Assembly (NCBI GenBank): GCA_015178975.1
Contig: WHVD01000025.1
Span: forward strand, 744,001-808,000
Direction: 5' to 3'
Source of the DNA: Hysterangium stoloniferum
Lineage: Eukaryota > Basidiomycota > Agaricomycetes > Hysterangiales > Hysterangiaceae
DNA length: 64,000 bases
Shown here: positions 23,163 to 39,237 of the stretch, piece by piece
Layout: each line of letters begins with the position of its first letter
Numbering within the stretch: the first letter of the stretch is position 1
Notes under the pieces: model-generated
Database searches by the model: none
What the model saw: only the letters and a program-made list of their open reading frames with translations
Told to the model about the DNA's origin: nothing
Translations under genes and position numbers: made by a program

Positions 23163-24949
23163 TGTTCCGACCGTGTCGTAACCCATGTCGCAACCCGATG
23201 GTCCCTGAGAATACTGCAGTCTTTCGATGTTCCAAGTTATTAATCAAGTCATCATTTCGGCAACCTTCAGAACACTGACACTGACGTATACCTTCACGGC
23301 GATCAAACCTCGTTTACACCCCTGTCAAAATATACTCTACCATCTGGTTATGCTTTGATACGTCCCCTTTCATTATGATGATCTGTTTTACTCTATGTTT
23401 CACATATGCCCGTATATACTTGTAGCCCGTGGACTATTCCCTTTTCTCGTAATCCCGCTCTCGGCTAAATCTCGGCTTCCGATCTTATCGTAACCTTCCG
23501 GTTCCTAGTCAAGCTTATTTGTCAATGCCGTTTTCCGCTCTTCCCTTAGTTAGTAGTTTCTAGATGGCGATAACTCGTATATAAGACCCACTGTAATGTA
23601 ACTACTAGACAATCAGAATATCGACTTAGAATATCGACTTAGAATATCGACTTAGAATATCGACTTAGATCAACTTAGATACCCCTCTAATTTCCGACTC
23701 CATTATCTATTCACGACCACCACATTCGGACTCCCTCCGATTTACGATTCGACCTACATTTACGACTTCAACCTCTAATCTCCGAGTCTCAGTCTCCGAG
23801 TCTCAGTCTCCGAGTCTCAGTCTCTGAGTCTCAGTCTCCGAGTCTCAGTCTCCGAGTCTCAGTCTCCGAGTCTCAGTCTCCGAGTCTCAGTCTCCGAGTC
23901 TCAGTCTCCGAGTCTCAGTCTCTGAGTCTCAGTCTCCGACTCACAGTCCCCGACTCTCTCAGTCCCCGACTCTCTCAGTCCCCGACTCTCTCAGTCCCCG
24001 ACTCTCTCAGTCCCCGACTCTCTCAGTCCCCGACTCTCTCAGTCCCCGACTCTCTCAGTCCCCGACTCTCTCAGTCCCCGACTCTCTCAGTCCCCGACTC
24101 TCTCAGTCCCCGACTCTCTCAGTCCCCGACTCTCTCAGTCCCCGACTCTCTCAGTCCCCGACTCTCTCAGTCCCCGACTCTCTCAGTCCCCGACTCTCTC
24201 AGTCCCCGACTCTCTCAGTCCCCGACTCTCTCAGTCCCCGACTCTCTCAGTCCCCGACTCTCTCAGTCCCCGACTCTCTCAGTCCCCGACTCTCTCAGTC
24301 CCCGACTCTCTCAGTCCCCGACTCTCTCAGTCCCCGACTCTCTCAGTCCCCGACTCTCTCAGTCCCCGACTCTCTCAGTCCCCGACTCTCTCAGTCCCCG
24401 ACTCTCTCAGTCCCCGACTCTCTCAGTCCCCGACTCTCTCAGTCCCCGACTCTCTCAGTCCCCGACTCTCTCAGTCCCGACTCTCAGTCCGACTCTCTCA
24501 GTCCCCGACTCTCTCAGTCTCCGACTCTCTCAGTCTCCGACTCTCTCAGTCTCCGACTCTCTCAGTCTCCGACTCTCTCAGTCTCCGACTCTCTCAGTCT
24601 CCGACTCTCTCAGTCTCCGACACTCTCAGTCTCCGACACTCTCAGTCTCCGACACTCTCAGTCTCTGACACTCTCAGTCTCCGACACTCTCAGTCTCCGA
24701 CTCTGTCAGTCCCCGACACTCTCAGTCTCCGACTCTTGGTCTCCAACCCCTCAGCCCACCCTGGACTTATCCTTCGGTTTCCGATCGGTAGTTTACCGAG
24801 AGGTTTACTTGACAGGACTAGTTTTCGCCCGCCCGAAATTTAAGGACACCTGACGGTAACTTGCGAGGGTGCAGCACATAAGCTGAAGCCAAGTCCTTCC
24901 ATTCGGTCCCTGTCGGCCAGCCGACATCTGTCAGTTTCTGCTCTTAACA
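23163..24949 (+). repeat. 5' LTR of element B (1.79 kb, swollen by a minisatellite)
   Basis: Ends TGTTCCGACC…CTCTTAACA. A TATATAA box at 23578-23584 precedes the likely transcript start AATCAGAATAT (23611-23621) by about 33 bp. The shared LTR box lies at 24865-24896, 53 bp from the LTR end. Confidence 0.88.
23777..24737 (+). repeat. pyrimidine-rich minisatellite inside LTR B
   Basis: A 14-bp unit (TCTCCGAGTCTCAG) is repeated about 11 times. It is followed by a 16-bp unit (TCCCCGACTCTCTCAG) repeated about 33 times almost perfectly from 23947 to 24474. Variant 16-bp units (TCTCCGAC(T/A)CTCTCAG) run to about 24737. The equivalent tract in the other LTR of the same element (36131-36378) is only about 250 bp. 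A short 13-bp repeat (AATATCGACTTAG, four units) lies just upstream at 23616-23669. Confidence 0.95.
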
Positions 24950-24989
24950 GTATATTCTGATTTCTACTCACAAACCCGTCCTTATATCT

Positions 24990-25711
24990 TGTTACGACCG
25001 TGTTGCAACCCTATCGGTCCCGAGGTTATCGCCACTTGTCAACGTTTCAAGTCATCCTCTCGGAACCCATCGGCCCCGAAGCTGACGAATGTTTTCGCGA
25101 AGATCAAACTCCGTTTATGCCCACGTCAAAACAACTCGTATTGTCTGGTCAAACTTTGATACGTCCCCTTTATTATGTTGATCCGTTCAATCTTATGTTT
25201 CACATATGTCTATCTATATTTGTAGTCCTTGAACTATTTCCTTTTATCGTAATCCCGCTCTCGGTTATCATCGGCCTCCGAACTAATCATAAACTTCCCG
25301 TTCCTAGTCAAGCTTATTGTTAATACCGTGTTCCGCCCTTCTCCCCATTAGTATTTTCCAGACGCCTGTTACTTGTATATGAACCCACTGTAGTTGTAGT
25401 TACTAGGCAATCAGAATATCGACTCAGAATACCCTCATATGCCTGTATCAGTCTCATACTAAGAATCCCCCCATCCGCCTTCGCGTGCGCTCGCCCACTC
25501 CCGGCCCCGACCCCTTGGCCCGACGCTCGACTTGTCCTTCGATTCCGATGGGTATCACGCCGAAAGGTACTCACTAGGATTAGTCTTTGCCTGCCCGAAA
25601 TTTAAGGACATCCTACGGATATTTGCGAGGGCGCAGCACATAAGCTGAAGCCAAGTCCTTCCAATCGGTCCCTGTCGGCCACCGACATTAGTCAGTTTTC
25701 AGTTCTTAACA
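24990..25711 (+). repeat. 5' LTR of element A
   Basis: Ends TGTTACGACC…GTTCTTAACA. A TATAT box at about 25375-25380 precedes the likely transcript start at 25409 by about 34 bp. The shared LTR box lies at 25627-25658, 53 bp from the LTR end. Confidence 0.92.
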
Positions 25712-25748: not shown

Positions 25749-27390
25749 ATGCCTCCGAGAAGAAATGCCAAGCCTAGCGGCGAAGCAGAATCTTCCACTC
25801 TCAAGTCTCCTTTTCTGTATACAGCCCGAGCTACTCAGAGAACTCTGCTACCAGAAACCTCCAAAGAATCTCGCTTTGTGGAGATTACCGGCGATGCTGA
25901 AGAAGTAACTGAAGCAACCGATCCCGAAGCAACTGAGGAGATTAACAATCAACCAGTTTCGGAACACGAACCCGAGGATGGCGACCAACCTCAGGCTAGT
26001 GGCTCCAAGAAGTCCGCAAAGAAGAAACCAGCTCTCGACCCTGAAGAAACATGGGAATTGTTTTCAGGTACTCTAGGATCCCTTAACAAATTCCTTAAAA
26101 GCAATATCAAGGAAAAGGAACCTGGGCAAACCCGAGTCAACAAACCCGAGCCATTCACTGGCTCAAACCCGAAGAAATTGCCGACATTTCTTATGCAATG
26201 TCGATTCAACTTTCGGGACTGCCCGGCTGCATTCGCAACGGATGACTGAAAGGTAAACTTCGCACTCTCATACCTTAAGGATTCCGCAGCAGCCTGGTTT
26301 GAACCCGCATTCTCTGGCCTCACCTCTGAAGACCCCGATTGGCTTCACGATTGGGATGCCTTTGTCGAGGAACTCGAAACTAACTTCGGTCCCTACGACC
26401 AAACCGGCGATGCCAAAACCGCGCTTTCTAATCTCAAAATGAAAGACACTCAGCACATCACCGATTACATCATCCAGTTCAACAACCTCGCCGCACATTG
26501 CGACTGGGGCGATTCGGCCCTCCGCTACCAGTTTTACTCCGGCCTTCCGTCTCGCCTCAAAGATGAAGTCTCCAAAGGAGAGACTGGCAAGCCGAAGACC
26601 CTCTCTCTCATGCGTCTGAAAGCCCAAAACGCAGATGCCTGATACTGGGAACGACGTTTGGAAATGAGTCGCAAAAACCCCTCAGACAAAAAATCATCGG
26701 ACAATAAGAACGCCAACAAGTCTGGTAATCAAAACACCAACAACAATGGCAACTCGACCTCTGATAAGAAGTCCGAAAACAAAGGGCTACCGACAAAAAA
26801 GGCAAGGGAAAACAGTCGAATAAGTCTCAAGACAAAGACAAACCCGACTTAACTGGCAAACTCGGCTCCGATGGCAAGCTCCTACCACAGGAAAAGCAAC
26901 GCCGAATGGACAACAACCTTTGTTTGTTGTGCGCAGATCCCGGACACCGAGTCGCTGCTTGCCCAAAAGCCACAAAAGCCCGATCGGCTAATACGGCCAC
27001 GGCCTCACAACCGGCCAAGCCGGCTATCGAGTCGAAAAAAGATTAAGCAACTCTCTGGATTCCGTGCGTTTGGAGAGTTGCGTTGAATCTCCTCACACAC
27101 CAGAAAATTGTCACCTTAACACATCCGCCTTGTATGATCCTAATTCCTTGTTCATAAATCTTACCTCGGAACCTCTCGGGACCCTCACATTTCGAGCTCT
27201 CATAGATTCAGGTTCAACCCATTGTTTTATAGATACAAGTTTTTCCAGAAAAAATCAGTTAAAAACCTACGCAATAGATCCAATTCTGCTCTGACTCTTT
27301 GATGGTACCTCAAACTCCGTAATCTCGCAAGCCTGTGAACTCTGACTTCGGTTCCCGTGTGGAACCTTTCAGACAGTTACGTTTTTTGTA
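25749..27390 (+). pseudogene. gag and protease region of element A (fossil)
   Basis: Starts MPPRRNAKPSGEAES… 38 bp after the LTR. A Gag matrix/capsid part (FTGSNPKKLPTFLMQC…) is followed by a CLLCADPGHRVAAC zinc knuckle near 26.93 kb and an aspartic protease motif (LIDSGSTHCF) near 27.2 kb. Order and content match chromovirus Gag-PR. The region has a handful of breaks and is treated as a fossil. Confidence 0.8.
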
Positions 27391-27396
27391 ACACAG

Positions 27397-30300
27397 TTGG
27401 ACCCGAGCTGCTCCGGCTCCCGAGCATTTACAGTCAATCTTAAAATTGACGAAGTCACCGGTCGCTTTGCATCCCCGGTGACCGAACCAATCGCAGATTT
27501 AGAAGGTGTTCCCGAAAAATACCATGAATTTGCAGATGTCTTCAGTAAACAAAAAGCCGATCGACTCGCCCCTCACAGGCCTTACGATTTGAAAATTGAT
27601 ATTGAAGATGGTTCACATCCGCCCCTAGGCCCGGTTTATCCTCTCTCGCAGTCTGAATTATCGGCTATCCGAGATTTCTTGGACGAACATTTGGCTATAG
27701 GTTTTATCCGACCCTCAAAGTCTCCTTATGGAGCCCCTGTCCTATTCGTTCGGAAAAAAGATGGTTCCCTTCGACTTTGCGTTGATTTTCGAGGACTAAA
27801 TGTGATCACTCGAAAAGACAAGTACCCATTACCATTAATCTCTGATTTACTTGATGCCCCTCGGAAGGCCCGAATCTATACAAAGATAGATCTCAAGCAT
27901 CCCTATCATTTGGTTCGGATCGCCGAAGGCGACGAATGGAAAACGGCTTTTCGCACTCGCTATGGCTCCTTTGAATGGTTAGTAATGCCTTTCGGCCTCA
28001 CCAACGCTCCGTCGGTCTTTCAACGTTTTATCAACGACGTCTTTTCCGACCTCCTCAACGTCTTTTCCGACCTCCTCGACGTCTTTTCCGACCTCCTCGA
28101 CGTCTTTTCCGACCTCCTCGACGTCTTTTCCGACCTCCTCGACGTCTTTTCCGACCTCCTCGACGTCTTTTCCGACCTCCTCGACGTCTTTTCCGACCTC
28201 CTCGACGTCTTTTCCGACCTCCTCGACGTCTTTGTCATTGTGTATTTAGACGACATCCTCATATTCTCCGAAGATCCTACACCTCATGACGGACATGTTC
28301 GTGAAGTTCTCCGAAGACTCCGAAAACATGGTCTTTTTGCGAATGGTAAAAAATGTTCTTTTGATGTCGACACAGTTGAATATTTAGGGTTTATGATGGG
28401 ACCTGACGGTCTCCACATGGACGACTCTAAAATTCAAGTCATTCAAGATTGGCCGGAACCCCAGAAGGTTAAGGATATTCAATCCTTTCTAGGCTTCGCC
28501 AATTTTTATCGTCGTTTCATTCACAACTACTCAAAAATTACCGTTCCACTCACCCGTCTTACTCGTAAAGACGCCCCGTGGAATTTCTCCGAAGAATGCC
28601 GATCGGCATTCCAGGAATTGAAAAGTGCGTTTACATCCGCCCCTATTTTGTCGCACTGGAAGCCTGACGTTCAACTCATCGTGGAAACTGATGCTTTGGA
28701 CTATGCGCTTGCCGTGATATTGTCCATTCTGGACACCGATGGTGAAGTACACCCAGTAGCTTTTCTGTCTCGCACATTTTCGGCGCCCGAACTCAACTAT
28801 GACGTTCACGATAAGGAATTACTCGCAATATTTGAAGCTTTCAAGACATGGCGACATTATTTGGAAGGCTCGGCCCACCCGGTAGATGTTATTACAGACC
28901 ACAAAAATTTAGTTTACTTTTCAACCACAAAACTTCTCACCCGTCGACAAGCTCGATGGTCCGAATACCTCTCTGCTTTCAACATGGTAATTCGTTTCCG
29001 CCCCAGCCACCTTGGTGGAAAACCCGACGCTATGACTAGACGATGGGACATCTATCCTAAAGAGGGGAGTAGCGACTACGCCACAGTTAACCCGCATAAT
29101 TTCAAACCTATGTTTTCATCAGAACAACTGTCCGCGTCTATCCGAGCCACTTACCTCATTCATCCAGTCTTGCGAAGTGTTATCCTTATGGATACCGAAA
29201 AGTTACATCAAGATATACTATCGGCAATTCCATTAGACCCAGTCACCAAAGCACACTTCGATAACCCGTCCGACCCCAATCAACCCCGATGGTCATTAGA
29301 CTCACAAGGTTTCATTAGACTTGACAATCGCATTTATATACCGGACTCCGACACCCTTCGGCTGCGAATCCTACAACATAAGCACGACCACCCAATCTCG
29401 GGACATTTCGGCCTCAATAAGACCCTCTCACTCATTAGAAGAGAATATACATGGCCCGGCATCCGAGATTTTGTTAAGCACTATTGTAAATCCTGTACTA
29501 CGTGTTTACGCTCTAAATCACAGCGACACAAACCATATGGCCTACTCAAACAATTACCGATACCGGAAAAACCTTGGAACTCGATTTCTATGGATTTTAT
29601 CGAGCACCTACCGGCATCCGAAGGTCACACAGCAATCCTAGTTGTTGTGGATCGGCTCTCAAAGCAAAGTATTTTCATTCCAACATATGACACGATAACA
29701 TCTGTACAGTTAGCTGAATTATTCGTCACCCACGTATTCTCCAAGCATGGCGTTCCATCGCATGTCACATCCGATCGTGGATCCGAGTTTGTTTCTCACT
29801 TCTTTAGGTCACTCGGAAAAGCACTAGACATGAAGCTACATTTCACTTCAGGCTATCACCCGGAAGGTGATGGACAAACCGAACGCATGAATCAAACCTT
29901 GGAACAATACATCCGTGTCTATTGCAACTATCAACAAGACAATTGGAAATCACTACTACCGCTAGCTGAATTCGCATATAACAACGCACCAAATGCCACT
30001 ACCGGCATTTCGCCTTTCTTCGCAAATAAAGGCTACAACCCCAACATCGCAATCCACCCGGAACGCGATCTCGCATCCGCCCGTGCTCAAGACTTCGTTA
30101 CCAACCTTGACGAGCTACATCAAGAACTTCGTAAAACTATCGCAATGGCCCAAGAACGATACCAACAGTCTGCGGATAAAAACCGACTTCCGCCTCCTGA
30201 TTTCAAGATCGGAGACCGAGTATTCATTAAAGCCAAGTTTTTTCGAACTACTAGACCTTCTAAGAAGCTCTCTGAAAAATATTTAGGTCCTTTTGAAGTT

Positions 30301-30672
30301 ATAGCACAAGCCGGCACGCTTTCATGGATGCTTCGGCTCCCCGACAACATGCATGCAGTGCACCCGGTATTTCATGTATCTATGTTAGAACCTTGTGTTC
30401 CTAACAGTATACCGGATCGCATACAACCACCACCTCCACCTGTGATTATTGATGGGGAACCCGAATTCGAGATATCAGAAATCCTAGACTCAAAAATCGA
30501 CAATCGCCGACGCTCATGCAAATTACTTTATTTGGTCAAATGGGCTGGCTATGAAGGTACAGATGAAGAAACTTCATGGATCCTAGCTACAGAGCTCGGT
30601 AATGCCTCGGAAATCGTTTTAGGGTTTCACCAAGCTTATCCGAACAAACCCGGTCCTCTCAATTCTTCATAA
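27397..30672 (+). CDS. pol of chromovirus A: RT, RNase H, integrase, chromodomain
   Basis: A single frame of 1,091 codons. RT spans about residues 70-350 (KKDGSLRLCVDFRGLN, PFGLTNAP, then YLDD at about 283-286). RNase H follows (VETDALDYALAVI … YDVHDKELLAI). The integrase zinc finger (HDHPISGHFG … CKSCTTC) precedes the catalytic core (SMDFIEHLP, SDRGSEF, YHPEGDGQTER). The C terminus is a chromodomain (EISEILDSK … YLVKWAGYEGTDEETSW), which in chromoviruses steers integration towards modified histones. A nine-unit 21-bp repeat lies inside the RT coding sequence. The enzymes copy element RNA into DNA and insert it; they act in virus-like particles and in the nucleus. Confidence 0.92.
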   Translation: MDPSCSGSRAFTVNLKIDEVTGRFASPVTEPIADLEGVPEKYHEFADVFSKQKADRLAPHRPYDLKIDIEDGSHPPLGPVYPLSQSELSAIRDFLDEHLAIGFIRPSKSPYGAPVLFVRKKDGSLRLCVDFRGLNVITRKDKYPLPLISDLLDAPRKARIYTKIDLKHPYHLVRIAEGDEWKTAFRTRYGSFEWLVMPFGLTNAPSVFQRFINDVFSDLLNVFSDLLDVFSDLLDVFSDLLDVFSDLLDVFSDLLDVFSDLLDVFSDLLDVFSDLLDVFVIVYLDDILIFSEDPTPHDGHVREVLRRLRKHGLFANGKKCSFDVDTVEYLGFMMGPDGLHMDDSKIQVIQDWPEPQKVKDIQSFLGFANFYRRFIHNYSKITVPLTRLTRKDAPWNFSEECRSAFQELKSAFTSAPILSHWKPDVQLIVETDALDYALAVILSILDTDGEVHPVAFLSRTFSAPELNYDVHDKELLAIFEAFKTWRHYLEGSAHPVDVITDHKNLVYFSTTKLLTRRQARWSEYLSAFNMVIRFRPSHLGGKPDAMTRRWDIYPKEGSSDYATVNPHNFKPMFSSEQLSASIRATYLIHPVLRSVILMDTEKLHQDILSAIPLDPVTKAHFDNPSDPNQPRWSLDSQGFIRLDNRIYIPDSDTLRLRILQHKHDHPISGHFGLNKTLSLIRREYTWPGIRDFVKHYCKSCTTCLRSKSQRHKPYGLLKQLPIPEKPWNSISMDFIEHLPASEGHTAILVVVDRLSKQSIFIPTYDTITSVQLAELFVTHVFSKHGVPSHVTSDRGSEFVSHFFRSLGKALDMKLHFTSGYHPEGDGQTERMNQTLEQYIRVYCNYQQDNWKSLLPLAEFAYNNAPNATTGISPFFANKGYNPNIAIHPERDLASARAQDFVTNLDELHQELRKTIAMAQERYQQSADKNRLPPPDFKIGDRVFIKAKFFRTTRPSKKLSEKYLGPFEVIAQAGTLSWMLRLPDNMHAVHPVFHVSMLEPCVPNSIPDRIQPPPPPVIIDGEPEFEISEILDSKIDNRRRSCKLLYLVKWAGYEGTDEETSWILATELGNASEIVLGFHQAYPNKPGPLNSS
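28036..28227 (+). repeat. 21-bp tandem repeat inside the RT coding region
   Basis: Nine units of GACGTCTTTTCCGACCTCCT plus C, nearly perfect, encode a repeated DVFSDLL. They stay in frame and end about 15 bp before the YLDD codons. Such uniform units point to recent slippage or unequal exchange. Confidence 0.95.
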
Positions 30673-30768: not shown

Positions 30769-31668
30769 CTAAGTTTCTCCCTCTACAACTTCTCCCTCCT
30801 CTCCGGCCTCCGAACCCTCCTCCGCACCGACAGCCACCGATACCACACCACCGACCTTCTCCGAAACCCCAATTTCATGCCCATTGCAACTCGAGACTTC
30901 CAAATACTGCTCAAGTTGACCACCAAGAGACTCGATAACACTGGTCTGTTTCTCCAGCCCGACGCCCAAGAGTCGCAATTGCTCAGTTATGAGCCCTTGT
31001 TGTCGCAACGTCTCATATCGGTACCGACTCATCTCCGAGAAGTAGGTCCGCATGAGGCGGTTTTGCTCTTCTAGAGCATCGGCCTGTCGCTCCTGGAATG
31101 AACCATCGGCCCCCGGGAAAACACACCCAAGCTTCTGATCAGCGCACTCTTGACAAGTGCGGCCCCAACCATTGGTCCGGGGATGACAGGTTCGACCCCG
31201 TTTCGTGCACCGATTGCACTTGGGGTCATTTTCGGGCCCCGCCTTGGGGGCCTGCTTTTGTTTCTATAGGAAAAATTATTTAGGAAGTCTTATTTAAGGA
31301 AATCAAACCCACCCTGGGGCTCGACGGCCCCGGTGCATCCTCCTCGTCCTCCTCTCCCTCTTCGTCATCAGACTCCGAAGGCATTGCAGCCTTGCGCTAA
31401 CAAATATTGTCAGTAAGGTTCTCAAAAGACACCAGAGCTGACTTACTTTTCCCTCCCGCGCCCGATCGGCCTCCTGCTGCTTGTTCTTTGCAAGCACTGC
31501 TTCCCAGTGCTTGCACGCGGCCTCTTCTGCCGCCTGTTTCTTCTCCTCGGCCTCGATGGCCGCCAACTCCTCCTTCTCCTTCCCTTCCTCCTCTTCACGT
31601 GCCTTTTTCTTCTGCTCGAGTATACACCGACGCTCCTTCGCGTTCGCCGTACCACTTGGCACCGACAT
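30769..31668 (-). CDS. antisense Zn(II)2Cys6-type accessory gene inside element A
   Basis: Lies between pol and the 3' LTR on the opposite strand to the element. Three exons: 31668-31447 (74 codons), 31396-31313 (28 codons) and 31263-30769 (164 codons and stop). They are separated by 50- and 49-bp GT-AG introns (donors GTAAGT and GTGGGT), and every junction is phase 0. Exon 1 is a Lys/Glu-rich likely coiled coil and exon 2 is acidic. Exon 3 begins with six cysteines in the spacing C-x2-C-x6-C-x10-C-x2-C-x6-C (residues about 118-149), with Lys/Arg between Cys2 and Cys3 and a Pro in the middle loop. That is the Gal4-type binuclear zinc-cluster pattern of fungal transcription factors. A second probable coiled coil (about 160-225) and an acidic Gly/Val/Glu tail follow. 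Likely a nuclear DNA-binding protein (inference). An upstream in-frame ATG at 31722 is possible; the chosen ATG follows a possible acceptor. Confidence 0.72.
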
Positions 31669-31895
31669 TGGCGCAACTGTTAACCTAACCGGGAAGGGTT
31701 TTGACCCCGAGCCTATGGTCATGGTGGTTAAAGGAAGGGAAGTAAAATTTCAAGCGCCAGGAACCCTCAAACTTTTATATGCAAATTTTTGCCGAGTCAC
31801 ATGATGTTTTGACACACCCAGCCGTACCCGACAAGTTTTACGTACGGGATCTAGATTTTCAGCCTCCTTGGGATTTCGGCCAAAAGGGGAGATAC

Positions 31896-32617
31896 TGTTA
31901 CGACCGTGTCGCAACCCTATCGGTCCCGAGGTTATCGCCACTTGTCAACGTTTCAAGTCATCCTCTCGGAAACCATCGGCCCCGAAGCTGACAAATGTTT
32001 TCGTGAAGATCAAACTCCGTTTACGCCCACGTCAAAACAACTCGTATTGTCTGGTCAAACTTTGATACGTCCCCTTTATTATGTTGATCCGTTCAATCTT
32101 ATGTTTCGCATATGTCTATCTATATTTGTAGTCCTTGAACTATTTCCTTTTATCGTAATCCCGCTCTCGGTTATCATCGGCCTCCGAACTAATCATAAAC
32201 TTCCCGTTCCTAGTCAAGCTTATTGTTAATACCGTGTTCCGCCCTTCTCCCCATTAGTATTTTCCAGATGCCTGTTACTTGTATATGAACCCACTGTAGT
32301 TGTAGTTACTAGGCAATCAGAATATTGACTCAGAATACCCTCATACGCCTGTATCAGTCTCATACTAAGAATCCCCCCATCCGCCTTCGCGTGCGCTCGC
32401 CCACTCCCGGCCCCGACCCCTTGGCCCGACGCTCGACTTGTCCTTCGATTCCGATGGGTATCACGCCGAAAGGTACTCACTAGGATTAGTCTTCGCCCAC
32501 CCAAAATTTAAGGACATCCTACGGATATTTGCGAGGGCGCAGCACATAAGCTGAAGCCAAGTCCTTCCGATCGGTCCCTGTCGGCCACTGACATTAGTCA
32601 GTTTTCAGTTCTTAACA
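31896..32617 (+). repeat. 3' LTR of element A
   Basis: 722 bp with the same ends as the 5' LTR. It is preceded by the polypurine tract and followed by the TSD TATCT. The shared LTR box is at 32533-32564. Confidence 0.92.
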
Positions 32618-34740
32618 TATCTATTCATTTGTTCATCACTCCACATCGGCATCGCATTACTTATCTTTTACAGAACCCTTTTGTGTTTTCAGACATCACT
32701 CTGATTTCCAGATGCAAAGATAAGTTAATGGCCAAAGCTGATCCTGTTTTACTCAGATTCCACTCATTTTGCCCTGCTCCGATCCTTGTTTTGTCCTGCC
32801 CTTGGTTTGCTCGGCTCCCGATTATTTCCGGATATTCCGAATGGACTAATTTACCACTAGTCACCATACTCTCGGAATCCATCGGCTTCCGGAAATTCGC
32901 TATGTCTGCCATTTACCTTGATGGTATATTATGGATTCAAGTTCGCAATGTGTTGACCACCTAGTGCTTGGTTTTATTTACAGATATACCTTCCTAAACC
33001 ATTGCTCATAACTCCAAATTGACATCGCCTTGCTTACCCTTGGTCTTTGCCTCACCTTCGGACCTTTTTCGGGTCCCGACCTCTTTTCCGAACTTTTGTT
33101 TGGACCCTTTTCCGACCTACCCTTTGGTCCATGCTGTCCCATGCATGTTCCTTGCCTTGTCACTACCTTCCGACCCATTCTCCGACTATTCTCTGACTAT
33201 TAGGATTCCTCTCAACCTCTGCATTGATTCCTACAATGACTCTCCAGACTTTCCGGTTTTTTCGGCAGGTCAAACTCCGAGTCAGGAAGATTTTATGCAG
33301 TACGCATCTCTCATCAGCTTTGGCAACCTGGATACATTCCAAACTGCAATAGGCTCTCCGGTTCCCTTCTGGGACATTTTCTGGCTCTTTTCAGTTTCTC
33401 TGAGGAGCATTTATTTGTTTCCCTTGTGGAACAAATCTGGACGTCACCCCTTTGACTAGCAGTATGAGTTGCTTGATTATTTCTAGGATACCACTGTCTC
33501 ACCCACTATAATCCATTGATTTCCGGGTATTGAGCAGTAAATTTTCCAAAACTTCCGATGCCTCTCATTTGACTGTATTGGTCTGCTCTGAATATTTTCA
33601 GACATCTCTGGCCTTCGGGCAACCCTTTGCCTTTCTGGGCATTTCTGGCCTTTTGGTACCTCTGGTCCCTTTTGGCGTGTTCTACTCTTTCAGTCAACTT
33701 TGGATTCTTTGGATTCCTTGGATTTCCGGATTTTCTGGAATCTTCGGACCCTTTGGATTTCAATTACCTGTTGAGTATATGCTCGTGAAGATCAGTTTAA
33801 TCTGGCTTTTCAGGCATCTCTGGCCTTCGGGCACCCATGGCCCTTCTGGGCCTGGCCTTTTCAGCATCTCTGGTCTTTTGGCTTACCACTCTCTCACTTA
33901 AACTCGGATTCCATGGTTTCTTCCGAACTTTCTGGAACCCTCGGAACTTTTGGATTCTTCGGACTTCCGGACATTCCGGAATTTCCAGACCCTTTGGATC
34001 CTACATATTTGTTGAGTGATTGTTTGCTGAGATCAGTTAATCCGGCCTTTCAGGCACTTTTGGCCTTCGGGCAACCCTCAGCCCCTTTTTCGGGCACCCC
34101 TGGCCTCTTTTGGCACTCTTGGCCTTCGGGCAACCCTCGGCCCTTTTGGGCACCTCAAGCCTTTTGGCATATTCGGCCTTTTAGGCATTTATGGCTGTTT
34201 TCAGCATGTTCAACACTTTCACTTAACTTCGGATTCCTCAGATTTCCGGACTTTCCGGAATCCTCAGACCTTTCCGTTCCCAATTATCTGTTGAGTGTTT
34301 GCTTGCCAAAAATCAGTTTAATCCAGCCTTTCAGGCAAACTTTGGCCTTCGGGCAATCCTAGCCTTTTGGATCCCTGGCCTCTCTTCCGACCTTTTCAGC
34401 CCTTTTGTCCAACTTCAAATTCTGTGAATTTTCAGACCTTCCGGAATCCTCGGACTTTCGAGAACTTTTGGATTTTCGGGATTTCTTGGCCTTTCCGAAA
34501 TCCGCAAATTTTGTGGAACCCCCAGACTTTCCGGAAACCTCAGACTGTCCGAATTTTAACTCCTTGTTGAGTTTTCCCTTCTTGCCATGATTGTTTTTAT
34601 CTTGGTTTTTTAGCATATATGGCCTTTTGCGCCATTCCAACCATTTTAGCATACTTGGTCTTTTGGCACCAATGTTTCAACTCAATTTCAGATTTCCGGA
34701 TTTTCCGATCTCTCCAAACTTTTGGAAACTTCAGATTCCA
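32618..34740 (+). repeat. interior of element B: non-coding, partly tandem spacer
   Basis: From about 33530 to 34700 units of roughly 240-280 bp repeat imperfectly. They are marked by TGTTGAGT…ATCAGTTTAATC near 33770, 34010 and 34289 (a weaker one near 34563), each followed by GGCCTTCGGGCA-like and TTTCCGGAATC-like blocks. Frames across it are Phe/Pro/Gly/Leu-rich by composition only. I see no gene. Confidence 0.6.
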
Positions 34741-35047: not shown

Positions 35048-35769
35048 TGTTAAGAACTGAAAACTGACTAAATGTCGGTGGCCAACAGGGACCGATCGGA
35101 AGGACTTGGCTTCAGCTTATGTGCTGCACCCTCGCAAATATCCGTAGGGGGCCCTTAAATTTCAGGCGGGCGAAGACTAATCCTAAAGAGCTCCTCTCGG
35201 CAAGATACCGATCGGAACCGAAGGACAAGTCGAGCGTCGGGCCAAGGGGTCGGGGCCGGGAGTGGGTGAGCACACGCAAAGGCGGATGGGGGATTCTTAG
35301 TATGAGACTGTTACAGACGTATGAGGGTATTCTGAGTCGATATTCTGATTGCCTAGTAACTACAACTACAGTGGGTTCATATACAAGTAACAGGCATCTA
35401 GAAAATACTAATGGAGAGAAGGGCGGAAAACGGTATTAACAATAAGCTTGACTAGGAACGGGAAGTTTATGATTAGTTCGGAGGCCGATGATAACCGAGA
35501 GCGGGATTACGATAAAAGGAAATAGTTCAAGGACTACAAATATAGATAGACATATGCGAAACATAAGATTGAATGGATCAACATAATAAAAGGGGACGTA
35601 TCAAAGTTTGACCAGACAATACGAGTTATTTTGACATGGGCGTAAACGGAGTTTGATCTTCGCAAAAACATACATCAGCTTCGGGGCCGATGGTTTCCGA
35701 GATGGTGACTTGGACATTGATAGGTGGCGATAACCTTGGGACCAATAGGGTTGCGACACGGTCGTAACA
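35048..35769 (-). repeat. A-family LTR, minus orientation, flanks unmatched
   Basis: 722 bp, reverse complement of the element A LTR (TGTTAAGAAC…GGTCGTAACA on the plus strand). The flanking pentamers CCAGT and ATATG do not match. The left neighbour is pol-like sequence and the right neighbour is the middle of LTR B. The shared box is at 35102-35133. Confidence 0.9.
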
Positions 35770-36585
35770 ATATGCCCGTATATACTTGTAGCCTGTGGAC
35801 TATTCCCTTTTCTCGTAATCCCACTCTCGGCTAAATCTCGGCTTCCAATCTTATCGTAACCTTCCGGTTCCTAGTCAAGCTTATTTGTCAATGCCGTTTT
35901 CCGCTCTTCCCTTAGTTAGTAGTTTCTAGATGCCGATAACTCGTATATAAGACCCACTGTAATGTAACTACTAGACAATCAGAATATCAACTTAGAATAT
36001 CAACTTAGAATATCAACTTAGATCAACTTAGATACCCCTCTAATTTCCGACTCCATTATCTATTCATGACCACCACATTTGGACTCCCTCCGATTTACGA
36101 TTTGACCTACATTTACGACTTCAACCTCTAATCTCCGACTCTCAGTCTCCGACTCTCAGTCTCTGACACTCTCAGTCTCTGACACTCTCAGTCTCCGACT
36201 CTCAGTCCCCGACTCTCAGTCCCCGACTCTCTCAGTCTCCGACTCTCTCAGTCTCCGACTCTCTCAGTCTCCGACTCTCTCAGTCTCCGACTCTCTCAGT
36301 CTCCGACTCTCTCAGTCTCCAACACTCTCAGTCTCCGACTCTCAGTCCCCGACACTCTCAGTCTCCGACTCTTGGTCTCCAACCCCTCAGCCCACCCTCA
36401 ACTTATCCTTCGGTTTCTGATCGGTAGTTTACCGAGAGGTTTACTTGACAGGACTAGTTTTCGCCTGCCCGAAATTTAAGGACACCTGACGGTAACTTGT
36501 GAGGGCGCAGCACATAAGCTGAAGCCAAGTCCTTCCATTCGGTCCCTGTCGGCCAGCCGACATCTGTCAGTTTGTGCTCTTAACA
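35770..36585 (+). repeat. 3' LTR of element B (partial)
   Basis: Homologous to LTR B from about 23407 to 24949, with a far shorter minisatellite (36131-36378). Ends TTAACA, followed by the TSD GAGCC. The shared box is at 36501-36532. Confidence 0.9.
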
Positions 36586-37417
36586 GAGCCCAATCGTGAT
36601 GACCGATCATGTTGTTACCACACCGGTATCACCATTATTCAGACAGTCCCCAAATATGTTGACCCTGCCACATATATGTGGTGCCTTTTGTCTTCAACAA
36701 CTTCTACAGGTTTCCATAATTCCACTATGATATCATAGCTATCACCTGACTTGAAGATCTGAGCTGGTTGAGTCAGAAAATAGGCCCGAGATGGCCAAGG
36801 GTGGAAGCAGAATAGCTTCCAGGGCCAAATTTGGATGAAACCAGCTGCTTGGCTGTGGAAACAGCACATGTCAACTTGTAGACACATCGTCAAGTTGATT
36901 ATTACGTAATATCATGTGATAGAGCTGAAAAAGTGTGCATATATGCAGTGATTATGAGAAAAGGGGCCAAATCACTAAAGATAGATAAATTGGCTTATTA
37001 ATCTTAACTTTGGGCTGCTCTAGGCTTCAATTATGTAATGTGACATCATTTGAAGCTTTGAGTATGCAAAGTTAAAAGGAAATAGCCATATTCTTGGAAT
37101 AATAAATAAAATAAAATAAAATAAAGAGAAATAAATCCCAGAAAATCAAGGGTAAATTCATGAAGATATACTAGATACATCATAGTCAGCCAGGTCATTG
37201 CAGCATTATCTGGAGCATATTCGTATGTGCAGGGGATTGCGTCAAATGATGTGAGAGGTGAGGACAATTGACTTGAAAACTGCTGATCTTATGCGACTTC
37301 ATGCAATGGCATCAGGGGGCGATTCTGACAAAACACTGTCTAGCCAGGGTAACCAGTGGCTCCCTGGGATGTGCTCCCATTAAGACTCCACTGCCTTTGC
37401 AGATGGGGCCCATAACC
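36586..37417 (-). other. remaining interior of copia C next to its 5' LTR
   Basis: Holds one minus-strand frame at 36639-36893 (…FIQIWPWKLFCFHPWPSRAYF…), which sits where copia Gag would start but shows no motif I can name. The last 14 bp, GGGGCCCATAACC read on plus, form the PBS. Confidence 0.4.
37404..37417 (-). promoter_or_regulatory. copia primer-binding site (half-tRNA initiator Met type)
   Basis: On the minus strand GGTTATGGGCCC directly follows the LTR end (TAACA). It is the complement of the anticodon-loop stretch GGGCCCATAACC of initiator tRNA-Met, the known half-tRNA primer of copia elements. Confidence 0.7.
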
Positions 37418-38280: not shown

Positions 38281-39237
38281 TGTTAAGTTCCAGATCTCAG
38301 GGCAGAATTTCCGATGGATATTCCGGATACTTCCCAGAAATATGTCCTCGGAGTTTCGGAGAATTAGTCCGGGAGTTTCCGGGGATTAGTAATGGGAGTA
38401 TCGGAATAATACCAGAGTACAGATGGACTTGGCTTCAGCTTATGTGCTGCGCCCTCGTGCACTCACTCGGGTGTCCATATTTCAGAGGATGAATATATGT
38501 CGGAATGTTTACAGATACTCGGAAGTTCTGGGAGTTCCGGATATCCGGAGTCCAGAGAGTTCCGAAGATTGAGCGTACAGAAAGACAGAAGAGATACAAA
38601 CTAATTCGAGATTAAAACTAAAGAGTAAGTACATGGCTATGGAAGACTATATAGATGTTCCAGTAATTGTACTACAAATCTAGAAGTATAATAAGACAGA
38701 TTAGGATGAAGATTCCGAAACGGGAATACAACAAGAACAATAAACAAGTGAATGAATAACTGTTAACCTGTCAGTTACTAAATACGGAACAAGGATGAGG
38801 TTCGGAAATATGGAAACTATAAATGTTCCATAGTTGGAAGTCAGGTCGGATTTTGAGGTGGATGTCAGAAAGTCGGATTGGAGACTTGGGGTGGAAAGTC
38901 AGATCAGAGATGGGAGTCTGACCAGGAGTCTGACCGGGAGTCTGACTGGATGTCTGACCGGGAGTCTGACTGGATGTCTGACCGGGAGTCTGACTGGATG
39001 TCTGACCGGGAGTCTGACTGGATGTCTGACCGGGAGTCTGACCGGATGTCTGACCGGATGTCTGACTGGAAGTCACCTTGAAGGGATGAGGTTCAGGTTC
39101 CAGTGGATTCCAGATCTTGATACTGGTCCGGAAGATGGTTCAGACCCAGAGATAATATCTGGGAAATACTCCGAAGAGTTTCCGGGAATGGATCTTTACA
39201 GGTTTCTCTGGAGACCCGCCCTGTACATATCCTAACA
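38281..39237 (-). repeat. F-family LTR
   Basis: Plus-strand ends TGTTAAGTTCC…TCCTAACA (957 bp). The shared box is at 38425-38457. Relatives lie at 55930-56283, at 57034-57327 with 58730-58941, and at 59129-59980. No TSD was found (GGTTT and CTAAT). Confidence 0.75.
38911..39075 (+). repeat. 24-bp minisatellite in the F-family LTR
   Basis: About six to seven units of GGAGTCTGACTGGATGTCTG plus ACCG, with small variants. It lies within the LTR and is absent or much shorter in the other F copies. Confidence 0.9.

Follow-up and report, generated by a model that had tools for sequence, protein, structure and literature searches.

Does a retrotransposon of Hysterangium stoloniferum carry, on its antisense strand, a spliced gene for a zinc-cluster-like protein, and what would such a protein do for the element? 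This question is raised by an open frame on the minus strand of the analyzed window, the whole stretch of 64,000 nucleotides from positions 744,001 to 808,000 of contig WHVD01000025.1. All coordinates given here are those of the window. The first-pass annotation described the frame as an antisense, intron-bearing zinc-cluster gene carried by a chromovirus. We analyzed the carrier element, the copies of the gene in the host genome and the encoded protein.

Antisense gene and its carrier element

The features of the locus are as follows.

24985-24989 and 32618-32622: target-site duplication (TSD) TATCT, 5 bp, on both sides of the element
24990-25711, plus strand: 5' LTR (TGTTACG..CTTAACA), 722 bp, identical to the aligned 3' LTR at 707 of 722 positions
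25749-26642, plus strand: sense-frame gag portion, interrupted by TGA codons at 26247 and 26640
27346-30672, plus strand: pol open frame with RT, RNase H, integrase, Tf2-1-type SH3 and chromodomain (Pfam matches)
30769-31263, minus strand: exon 3, with the six-cysteine motif, a long helix, an acidic tail and the stop TAG at 30771-30769
30886-31104, minus strand: predicted continuous helix (dimer-type) after the cysteine motif (AlphaFold)
31123-31218, minus strand: C-x2-C-x6-C-x10-C-x2-C-x6-C motif in exon 3
31264-31312, minus strand: intron 2, 49 nt, GTGGGT..ATAG, phase 0
31313-31396, minus strand: exon 2, 84 nt, acidic, with Ser, Asp and Glu
31397-31446, minus strand: intron 1, 50 nt, GTAAGT..TTAG, phase 0
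31447-31722, minus strand: exon 1, 276 nt in the window copy, charged, rich in Glu, Lys and Ala, with ATG at 31722
31775-31781, minus strand: CATATAA, a TATA-like box located 59 nt ahead of the ATG of the antisense gene
31796-31816, minus strand: conserved upstream motif with an E-box-like palindromic core (TCACATGA)
31849-31882, strand unassigned: conserved block of 34 nt adjoining the polypurine tract
31882-31895, plus strand: AAAAGGGGAGATAC, which we take by its position to be the polypurine tract, adjoining the start of the 3' LTR
31896-32617, plus strand: 3' LTR, 722 bp, from the alignment with the 5' LTR

Based on the RT-RH-INT order, the C-terminal chromodomain, the LTRs and the TSD, the carrier is a Ty3/gypsy chromovirus. 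The Pfam search detected Retrotrans_gag on 26250-26642 (E 1.7e-14), and the chromodomain of pol was matched at E 3.2e-5 with 24.2 bits, slightly below the Pfam cut-off of 25.1. The sense frame of the window copy is broken by the two TGA codons in gag, by TAA at 26850 and by further stops, whereas its antisense frame is unbroken. An in-frame 21-nt tandem repeat (FSDLLDV repeated) was found in the RT region (28014-28275), just ahead of YLDD, and possibly disables this copy. The surroundings of the element are also repetitive: a long 16-nt minisatellite at 23764-24850 is open in three frames with PDSLSPRLSQSPTLSV-type translations, further partial LTR-like copies, inverted and direct, lie at 35061-36586, and a 12-nt tandem repeat of the GGGAGTCTGACC type lies at 38888-39103.

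When the minus strand was read and spliced, the three open blocks were present with the splice points given by the first-pass annotation. The exons 31722-31447, 31396-31313 and 31263-30769 encode 284 residues, and their lengths (276, 84 and 495 nt, stop included) are each divisible by three. The claimed introns of 50 and 49 nt, with canonical ends and all in phase 0, were borne out by the sequence. The gene sits between pol and the polypurine tract. Its start is turned toward the polypurine tract and the 3' LTR, and its stop (30769) converges with the pol stop (30672), with 96 nt between them. The pol domains, the LTRs, the TSD and the comparison of copies support an antisense, intron-bearing gene carried by a chromovirus.

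One boundary was revised. The gene had been ended at 31668, which is an inner ATG. The ATG at 31722 is most likely the start, judging from its presence in 83 of 90 aligned copies. The PVRLTV stretch upstream of 31668 also occurs in a diverged sister subfamily, where the inner Met is absent.

Conservation among copies and in a sister subfamily

The host genome (111 Mb in 554 contigs) was searched with exon 3, and the best 150 of 594 candidates were scored. From these 150, 90 copies were aligned, namely the 30 best-ranked and a further 60 taken from the 90 matches at ranks 61-150, with ranks 31-60 skipped. Since the copies were drawn from the best 150 by similarity, the sample is biased to well-kept ones. 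A stop codon, TAG or TAA, ended the frame in 84 of the 90. The GT and the AG of intron 1 were each kept in 89 copies, and those of intron 2 in 88 and 85 copies, respectively. Each intron was 40-65 nt long in 88 of 90 copies, and the copies outside this range seem to reflect deletions or the end of a contig. The gene was flanked by at least 50 nt of pol in 87 of 90 copies, and the LTR was reached in 85.

Exon 1 was 300 nt long in 67 of 90 copies, and the window copy is short by 24 nt. Exon 2 was 84 nt in 76 copies, and exon 3 was mostly 495, 501 or 506 nt (37, 14 and 14 copies, respectively). Of the 30 closest copies, 28 had all three exon lengths divisible by three, as did 24 of the next 32 and 3 of the 28 most diverged. 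Among the last group, 14 copies share the 506-nt exon 3 with a frame open to the last codons (VVEET.. or similar), and the rest are mixed. Since the 506-nt copies stay in frame to the last codons, the loss of threes is partly another ending, not decay. A strict whole-frame test, which scores these altered endings as failures, was passed by 25 of 90 copies.

Among the 90 copies, the mean pairwise p-distance was 0.219 and 0.234 for the introns, 0.192, 0.120 and 0.153 for exons 1, 2 and 3, 0.188 for the upstream region and 0.137 for the pol end. In-register premature stops numbered 111, of which 65 were TGA at positions with CGA as the commonest codon, and another 22 were TGA at positions where CGG or CGT is commonest. 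The arginines of the cysteine domain were often read as Trp, Gln, His or Cys. These Arg changes and TGA stops fit CpG decay, a pattern as in methylated repeats, and such decay would also account for most of the in-register premature stops.

Selection was assessed with pairwise Nei-Gojobori dN/dS. The pairs are non-independent and large dS values are saturated, and thus the ratios are descriptive values, not tests. With rising dS, the ratio for exon 3 was 0.445 (dS <0.1), 0.305, 0.187 and 0.128 (dS 0.5-1.5, 1956 pairs). Such a drop would be expected from a blend of dead copies that decayed recently and active lineages that evolved over longer times. At dS 0.5-1.5, the ratio was 0.192 for exon 1 and 0.156 for all exons. 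When exon 3 was read in four unrelated frames (two shifted on the same strand and two in sense), dN/dS was 0.98-1.43. The sense frame that has the same third positions as exon 3 gave 0.25-0.56, and in the window copy it contains no open frame of 60 residues. The upstream region treated as codons gave 0.67-0.95. For the pol end in its own frame, the ratio was 0.31, 0.20 and 0.15 in the lower dS bands and 0.49 at 0.5-1.5 (383 pairs), the last value being taken to come from misaligned ends. Differences within exon 3 were richest at the third codon position (0.092, 0.103 and 0.263 for the three positions). The pN/pS within exon 3 (1800 pairs) was 0.19 for the first 13 residues, 0.18 for the cysteine domain, 0.16 for the helix and 0.34 for the acidic tail.

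A conserved antisense frame with low dN/dS, which the first-pass annotation had named as a check, was thus found in related copies (0.13-0.19 versus 0.98-1.43 in unrelated frames). Judging from these sequence comparisons, the antisense gene is real and its protein frame is maintained by purifying selection.

A search with the pol end, in which pol ends were picked by eye, gave 20 without an exon-3 neighbor among the matches listed. Four of them (L101-L104) were fetched, and all four bear the antisense gene, although in L102 and L104 its exon 3 is broken. L102, which has a deletion in exon 3, is a close copy of the window element. The other three form a sister subfamily, the pol-end protein of which is 94-95% identical to that of the window copy. 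The antisense exon 3 of L101 is about 64% identical to the window copy by one measure; by tblastn, L101 and L103 are 56-58% identical over residues 92-265, and L104 is 69% identical over a shorter stretch. Exon 1 is 62-64% identical, and the exon/intron layout is the same. The exon-3 frame stays open in L101 and L103 but carries a shift in L104, and L103 has a shift in exon 1. In L101, TTG occupies the aligned start position, and an ATG follows two codons later. All six cysteines are present in L101 and L103.

Between the sister and window exon 3, dN was 0.26-0.32 and pS about 0.72, with a ratio of 0.105-0.13. The nucleotide identity was 67-74% in the exons, 43-54% in the introns and 53% in the spacer after the stop. 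In the same pairs of elements, dS in pol was about 0.5 versus a saturated synonymous divergence in the antisense exon 3. This gap suggests either an exchange of the 3' module with pol or a different constraint. Over 170 residues, the exon-3 proteins of eight sister copies, L101 among them, show 100% identity, suggesting that these copies moved recently with an unbroken exon 3.

The region upstream of the antisense start was compared as well. At least 76 of 90 copies retain CATATAA, which is also present in the sister subfamily. The 21-nt motif at 31796-31816 is identical at 19 of 21 positions in L101 and 20 of 21 in L103, and the leader at 31723-31774 is 44% identical in the same comparison. 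We infer that the TATA-like box and the upstream motif would act as promoter elements. The antisense promoter thus placed is probably in the internal region of the element, outside the LTR. The block at 31849-31882 shows an identity of 94% in L101 and 97% in L103. It is longer than the polypurine tract alone would seem to require. Two CGGCC are present in this block in 4 of 11 sequences compared and are altered in the other 7.

Six-cysteine module and the helix after it

The spacing C-x2-C-x6-C-x10-C-x2-C-x6-C in exon 3 is exactly as claimed by the first-pass annotation, and every one of its six cysteines is retained in 89-90 of 90 copies. Zn(II)2Cys6 proteins have the spacing C-x2-C-x6-C-x5-12-C-x2-C-x6-8-C, and the spacing of the module falls within this consensus. 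Basic residues were also expected, and the stretch between Cys2 and Cys3 reads T-K-R-G-R-T. The Lys is present in 89 of 90 copies, and the two Arg in 50 and 62 of 90, being otherwise mostly Trp or Gln. The claim of a Pro in the expected place did not hold. The residue directly before Cys4 is Thr in 90 of 90 copies, and in host zinc clusters Pro occupies this place in 5 of 7 aligned domains. Directly after Cys3 come a His, present in 90 of 90 copies, and a Pro, present in 88.

The module was compared with profiles. For a 51-residue domain of the window copy, Zn_clus was the only Pfam family at E<=1, with 13.5 bits against a gathering cut-off of 21. With a 39-residue version, Zn_clus was the best of three weak matches (12.1 bits, below the cut-off). 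The domain of L101 scored 11.9 bits, below the cut-off, versus 44.6 bits for a host zinc-cluster control. Among 15 domain rows, 10 matched Zn_clus (best E 0.015) and one matched EGF_laminin at 0.0062. Among 21 rows of whole exon 3, Calici_MSP matched 9 (best 0.011) and Zn_clus matched 7 (best E 0.0021). Whole exon 3 of the window copy gave chance-level Pfam matches alone, and Zn_clus was not among them. Thus, in the profile search of exon 3 against the Zn(II)2Cys6 family, the whole exon of the window copy was unmatched and the isolated domain was matched, below the cut-off.

An hhalign comparison of the profile with seven host domains gave a score of 22.1 (P 3.3e-4, probability 16.6%), and 2 of 60 permutations that keep the cysteines scored as high. 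A modest resemblance to host zinc clusters beyond the cysteine spacing is suggested by these values. The sequence search of PDB gave two chance matches (E 1.2 and 1.4), and the profile search of PDB gave none. Two AlphaFold models had pLDDT <60 throughout the cysteine module, with no confident fold. Foldseek with the exon-3 model gave 0 matches, and an alignment scan of 97 stretches from IMG/VR detected no relative. PF00172 has 42 matches in the host genome, and tblastn of the element proteins against 10 of the 42 loci gave no match. The basidiomycete marker PF08015 had no match in the genome, a negative that carries no information; the zinc-cluster matches, the short introns and the type of element mark the host as fungal. 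Clustered Zn_clus matches were observed at the host loci G000:C115:74483-75050, G000:C56:27459-28077 and G000:C56:39173-39800.

The helix after the module corresponds to exon-3 residues 54-126 in the AlphaFold model, with pLDDT 92-98 over residues 61-120. Its hydrophobic period is 3.55, which was matched by 0.45% of shuffles. Coiled coils had been proposed on both sides of the module. The C-terminal one is supported by the helix model and the shuffles. The N-terminal one, in exon 1, was rejected, since its periodicity was attained by 75% of shuffles.

The module resembles Zn_clus (PF00172) regulators in its spacing, in the basic residues between Cys2 and Cys3 and in the helix that follows. It differs from them in its sub-threshold score, in the absence of Pro before Cys4 and in the His and Pro directly after Cys3. 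The assignment to the zinc-cluster family is therefore partly supported: the spacing, the basic residues and the best Pfam match of the window domain speak for it, whereas the score below the cut-off, the missing Pro and the lack of a confident fold speak against it. We describe the module as apparently zinc-cluster-like and do not assign it as a Zn_clus member.

Known antisense genes and the proposed function

An antisense gene in a fungal retrotransposon is already known, namely brtn of Boty in Botrytis cinerea (PMC7264820, PMC8365987); brtn is described as the antisense gene of Boty-like elements (also PMC4227169, PMC5987419). By these descriptions, Boty is a fungal element with a chromodomain in gag-pol and an extra antisense gene, counted among those between pol and the 3' LTR, as is the case here; the likeness is one of descriptions. 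Plant aORF-3R genes, such as the TRP28 gene of Retand and gene23 of Grande, also lie antisense between pol and the 3' LTR and are kept in most copies. The position, the orientation, the many copies and the conservation that define aORF-3R were all found here. In Retand, 97% of clusters are reported to bear an antisense TRP28 domain with predicted DNA binding (PMC11963269), and gene23 of Grande is described as nuclear with its own promoter (PMC7264820). Retand belongs to a plant lineage and has the TRP28 domain instead of a six-cysteine module (PMC11963269). The words intron and zinc are absent from the main texts of PMC11963269 (Retand) and PMC7264820 (Grande).

According to PMC6950816, HBZ of HTLV-1 is the product of a spliced antisense gene, a regulator with a dimer helix that acts in the nucleus and dampens transcription of the sense strand. 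HBZ is a bZIP protein with a TATA-less promoter inside the 3' LTR, whereas the probable promoter here is of the TATA type and outside the LTR. Pfam gave no bZIP match in the antisense protein, and the likeness to HBZ is one of layout and proposed role only. The function of antisense accessory genes of LTR elements is described as unknown in PMC7264820. We found no fungal retrotransposon antisense gene with a zinc-cluster-like module in the open-access library searched. The antisense layout is shared with known elements, and the spliced, zinc-cluster-like fungal version was not encountered in that library.

Our preferred reading is that the gene encodes a spliced antisense DNA-binding factor, dimeric, which would regulate the transcription of the element; we put its probability at about 0.55. 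Host RNA polymerase II would transcribe the gene from the upstream motif and TATA toward pol, and the two introns would be spliced out of the antisense transcript. The predicted protein has, in order, a charged N-terminus, an acidic middle, the six-cysteine module, a long helix that may form dimers and an acidic tail. It would enter the nucleus, bind DNA as a dimer and regulate transcription at the LTR and/or at its own promoter. In the simplest mode, sense transcription would be damped as copies accumulate. The gene would be copied via the sense genomic RNA, and the antisense introns would not be removed in transposition.

Antisense introns are not spliced in the sense RNA of a moving element. 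The introns, within 40-65 nt in nearly all copies, would survive because the element moves through sense RNA. We searched the 3' LTR for pairs of CGG/CCG in three arrangements with spacings of 0-20, using dinucleotide shuffles as the control. The most frequent, with three occurrences each, were CGG-N2-CCG and CGG-N7-CGG (both strands). Since 23% of shuffles attain three in some pattern, the pairs are not significant over all patterns, and no DNA target is indicated there.

The absence of a significant LTR operator also fits an unlikely, though serious, alternative, in which the protein acts on the nucleic acid or particles of the element, in RNA packaging, nuclear import or target-site choice. 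The selection on the protein agrees with such a role, and the cysteine module and long helix fit nucleic-acid binding and oligomerization. However, the separate probable promoter and the spliced layout would be more fitting for a nuclear regulator acting in trans than for a particle protein, and the acidic exon 2 and tail also speak against it. Ty1 p22 is a restriction factor that interferes with retrotransposition. A similar post-transcriptional limit on copy number here seems distinctly improbable. The gene is kept in a multicopy family with at least 150 scored matches, as such a factor might be, but the protein has no Pfam gag match and the module resembles DNA binding more. Transcripts of the two strands would have 30.8-31.7 kb in common, and the antisense RNA (dsRNA or small RNA) might be what matters, with the open frame incidental. 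This has little chance of being right, because it does not predict the low dN/dS of 0.13-0.19, the length changes of the closer copies mostly by threes or the near-complete retention of the cysteines.

The presence of introns points to descent from a spliced gene, and some retroelements bear host fragments. A captured host gene that hitch-hikes without benefit to the element is nevertheless disfavored and very unlikely, since two subfamilies whose synonymous divergence is saturated both carry the gene under constraint, no clearly unlinked copy was found among the 90, and tblastn against the 10 host zinc-cluster loci gave no match. Finally, inspection of a single copy alone would be unable to exclude that the open frame and the cysteine spacing arose by chance. 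The conservation in 90 copies, the dN/dS, the cysteines and the sister subfamily rule this out for practical purposes.

Starting again from the DNA-binding regulator, a broader reading can be stated, which we hold only tentatively: a fungal LTR retrotransposon may have taken up a zinc-cluster module as a spliced antisense self-regulator with its own TATA promoter, which would be a third independent antisense-encoded DNA-binding switch after HBZ and Retand TRP28. Antisense accessory genes of LTR elements have been described from plants and from a single fungal family. This case combines clear selection on the protein, introns kept at two sites, a probable promoter that is conserved, a module resembling a DNA-binding one and numerous copies within a single genome, which makes the idea of an element-encoded regulator directly testable.
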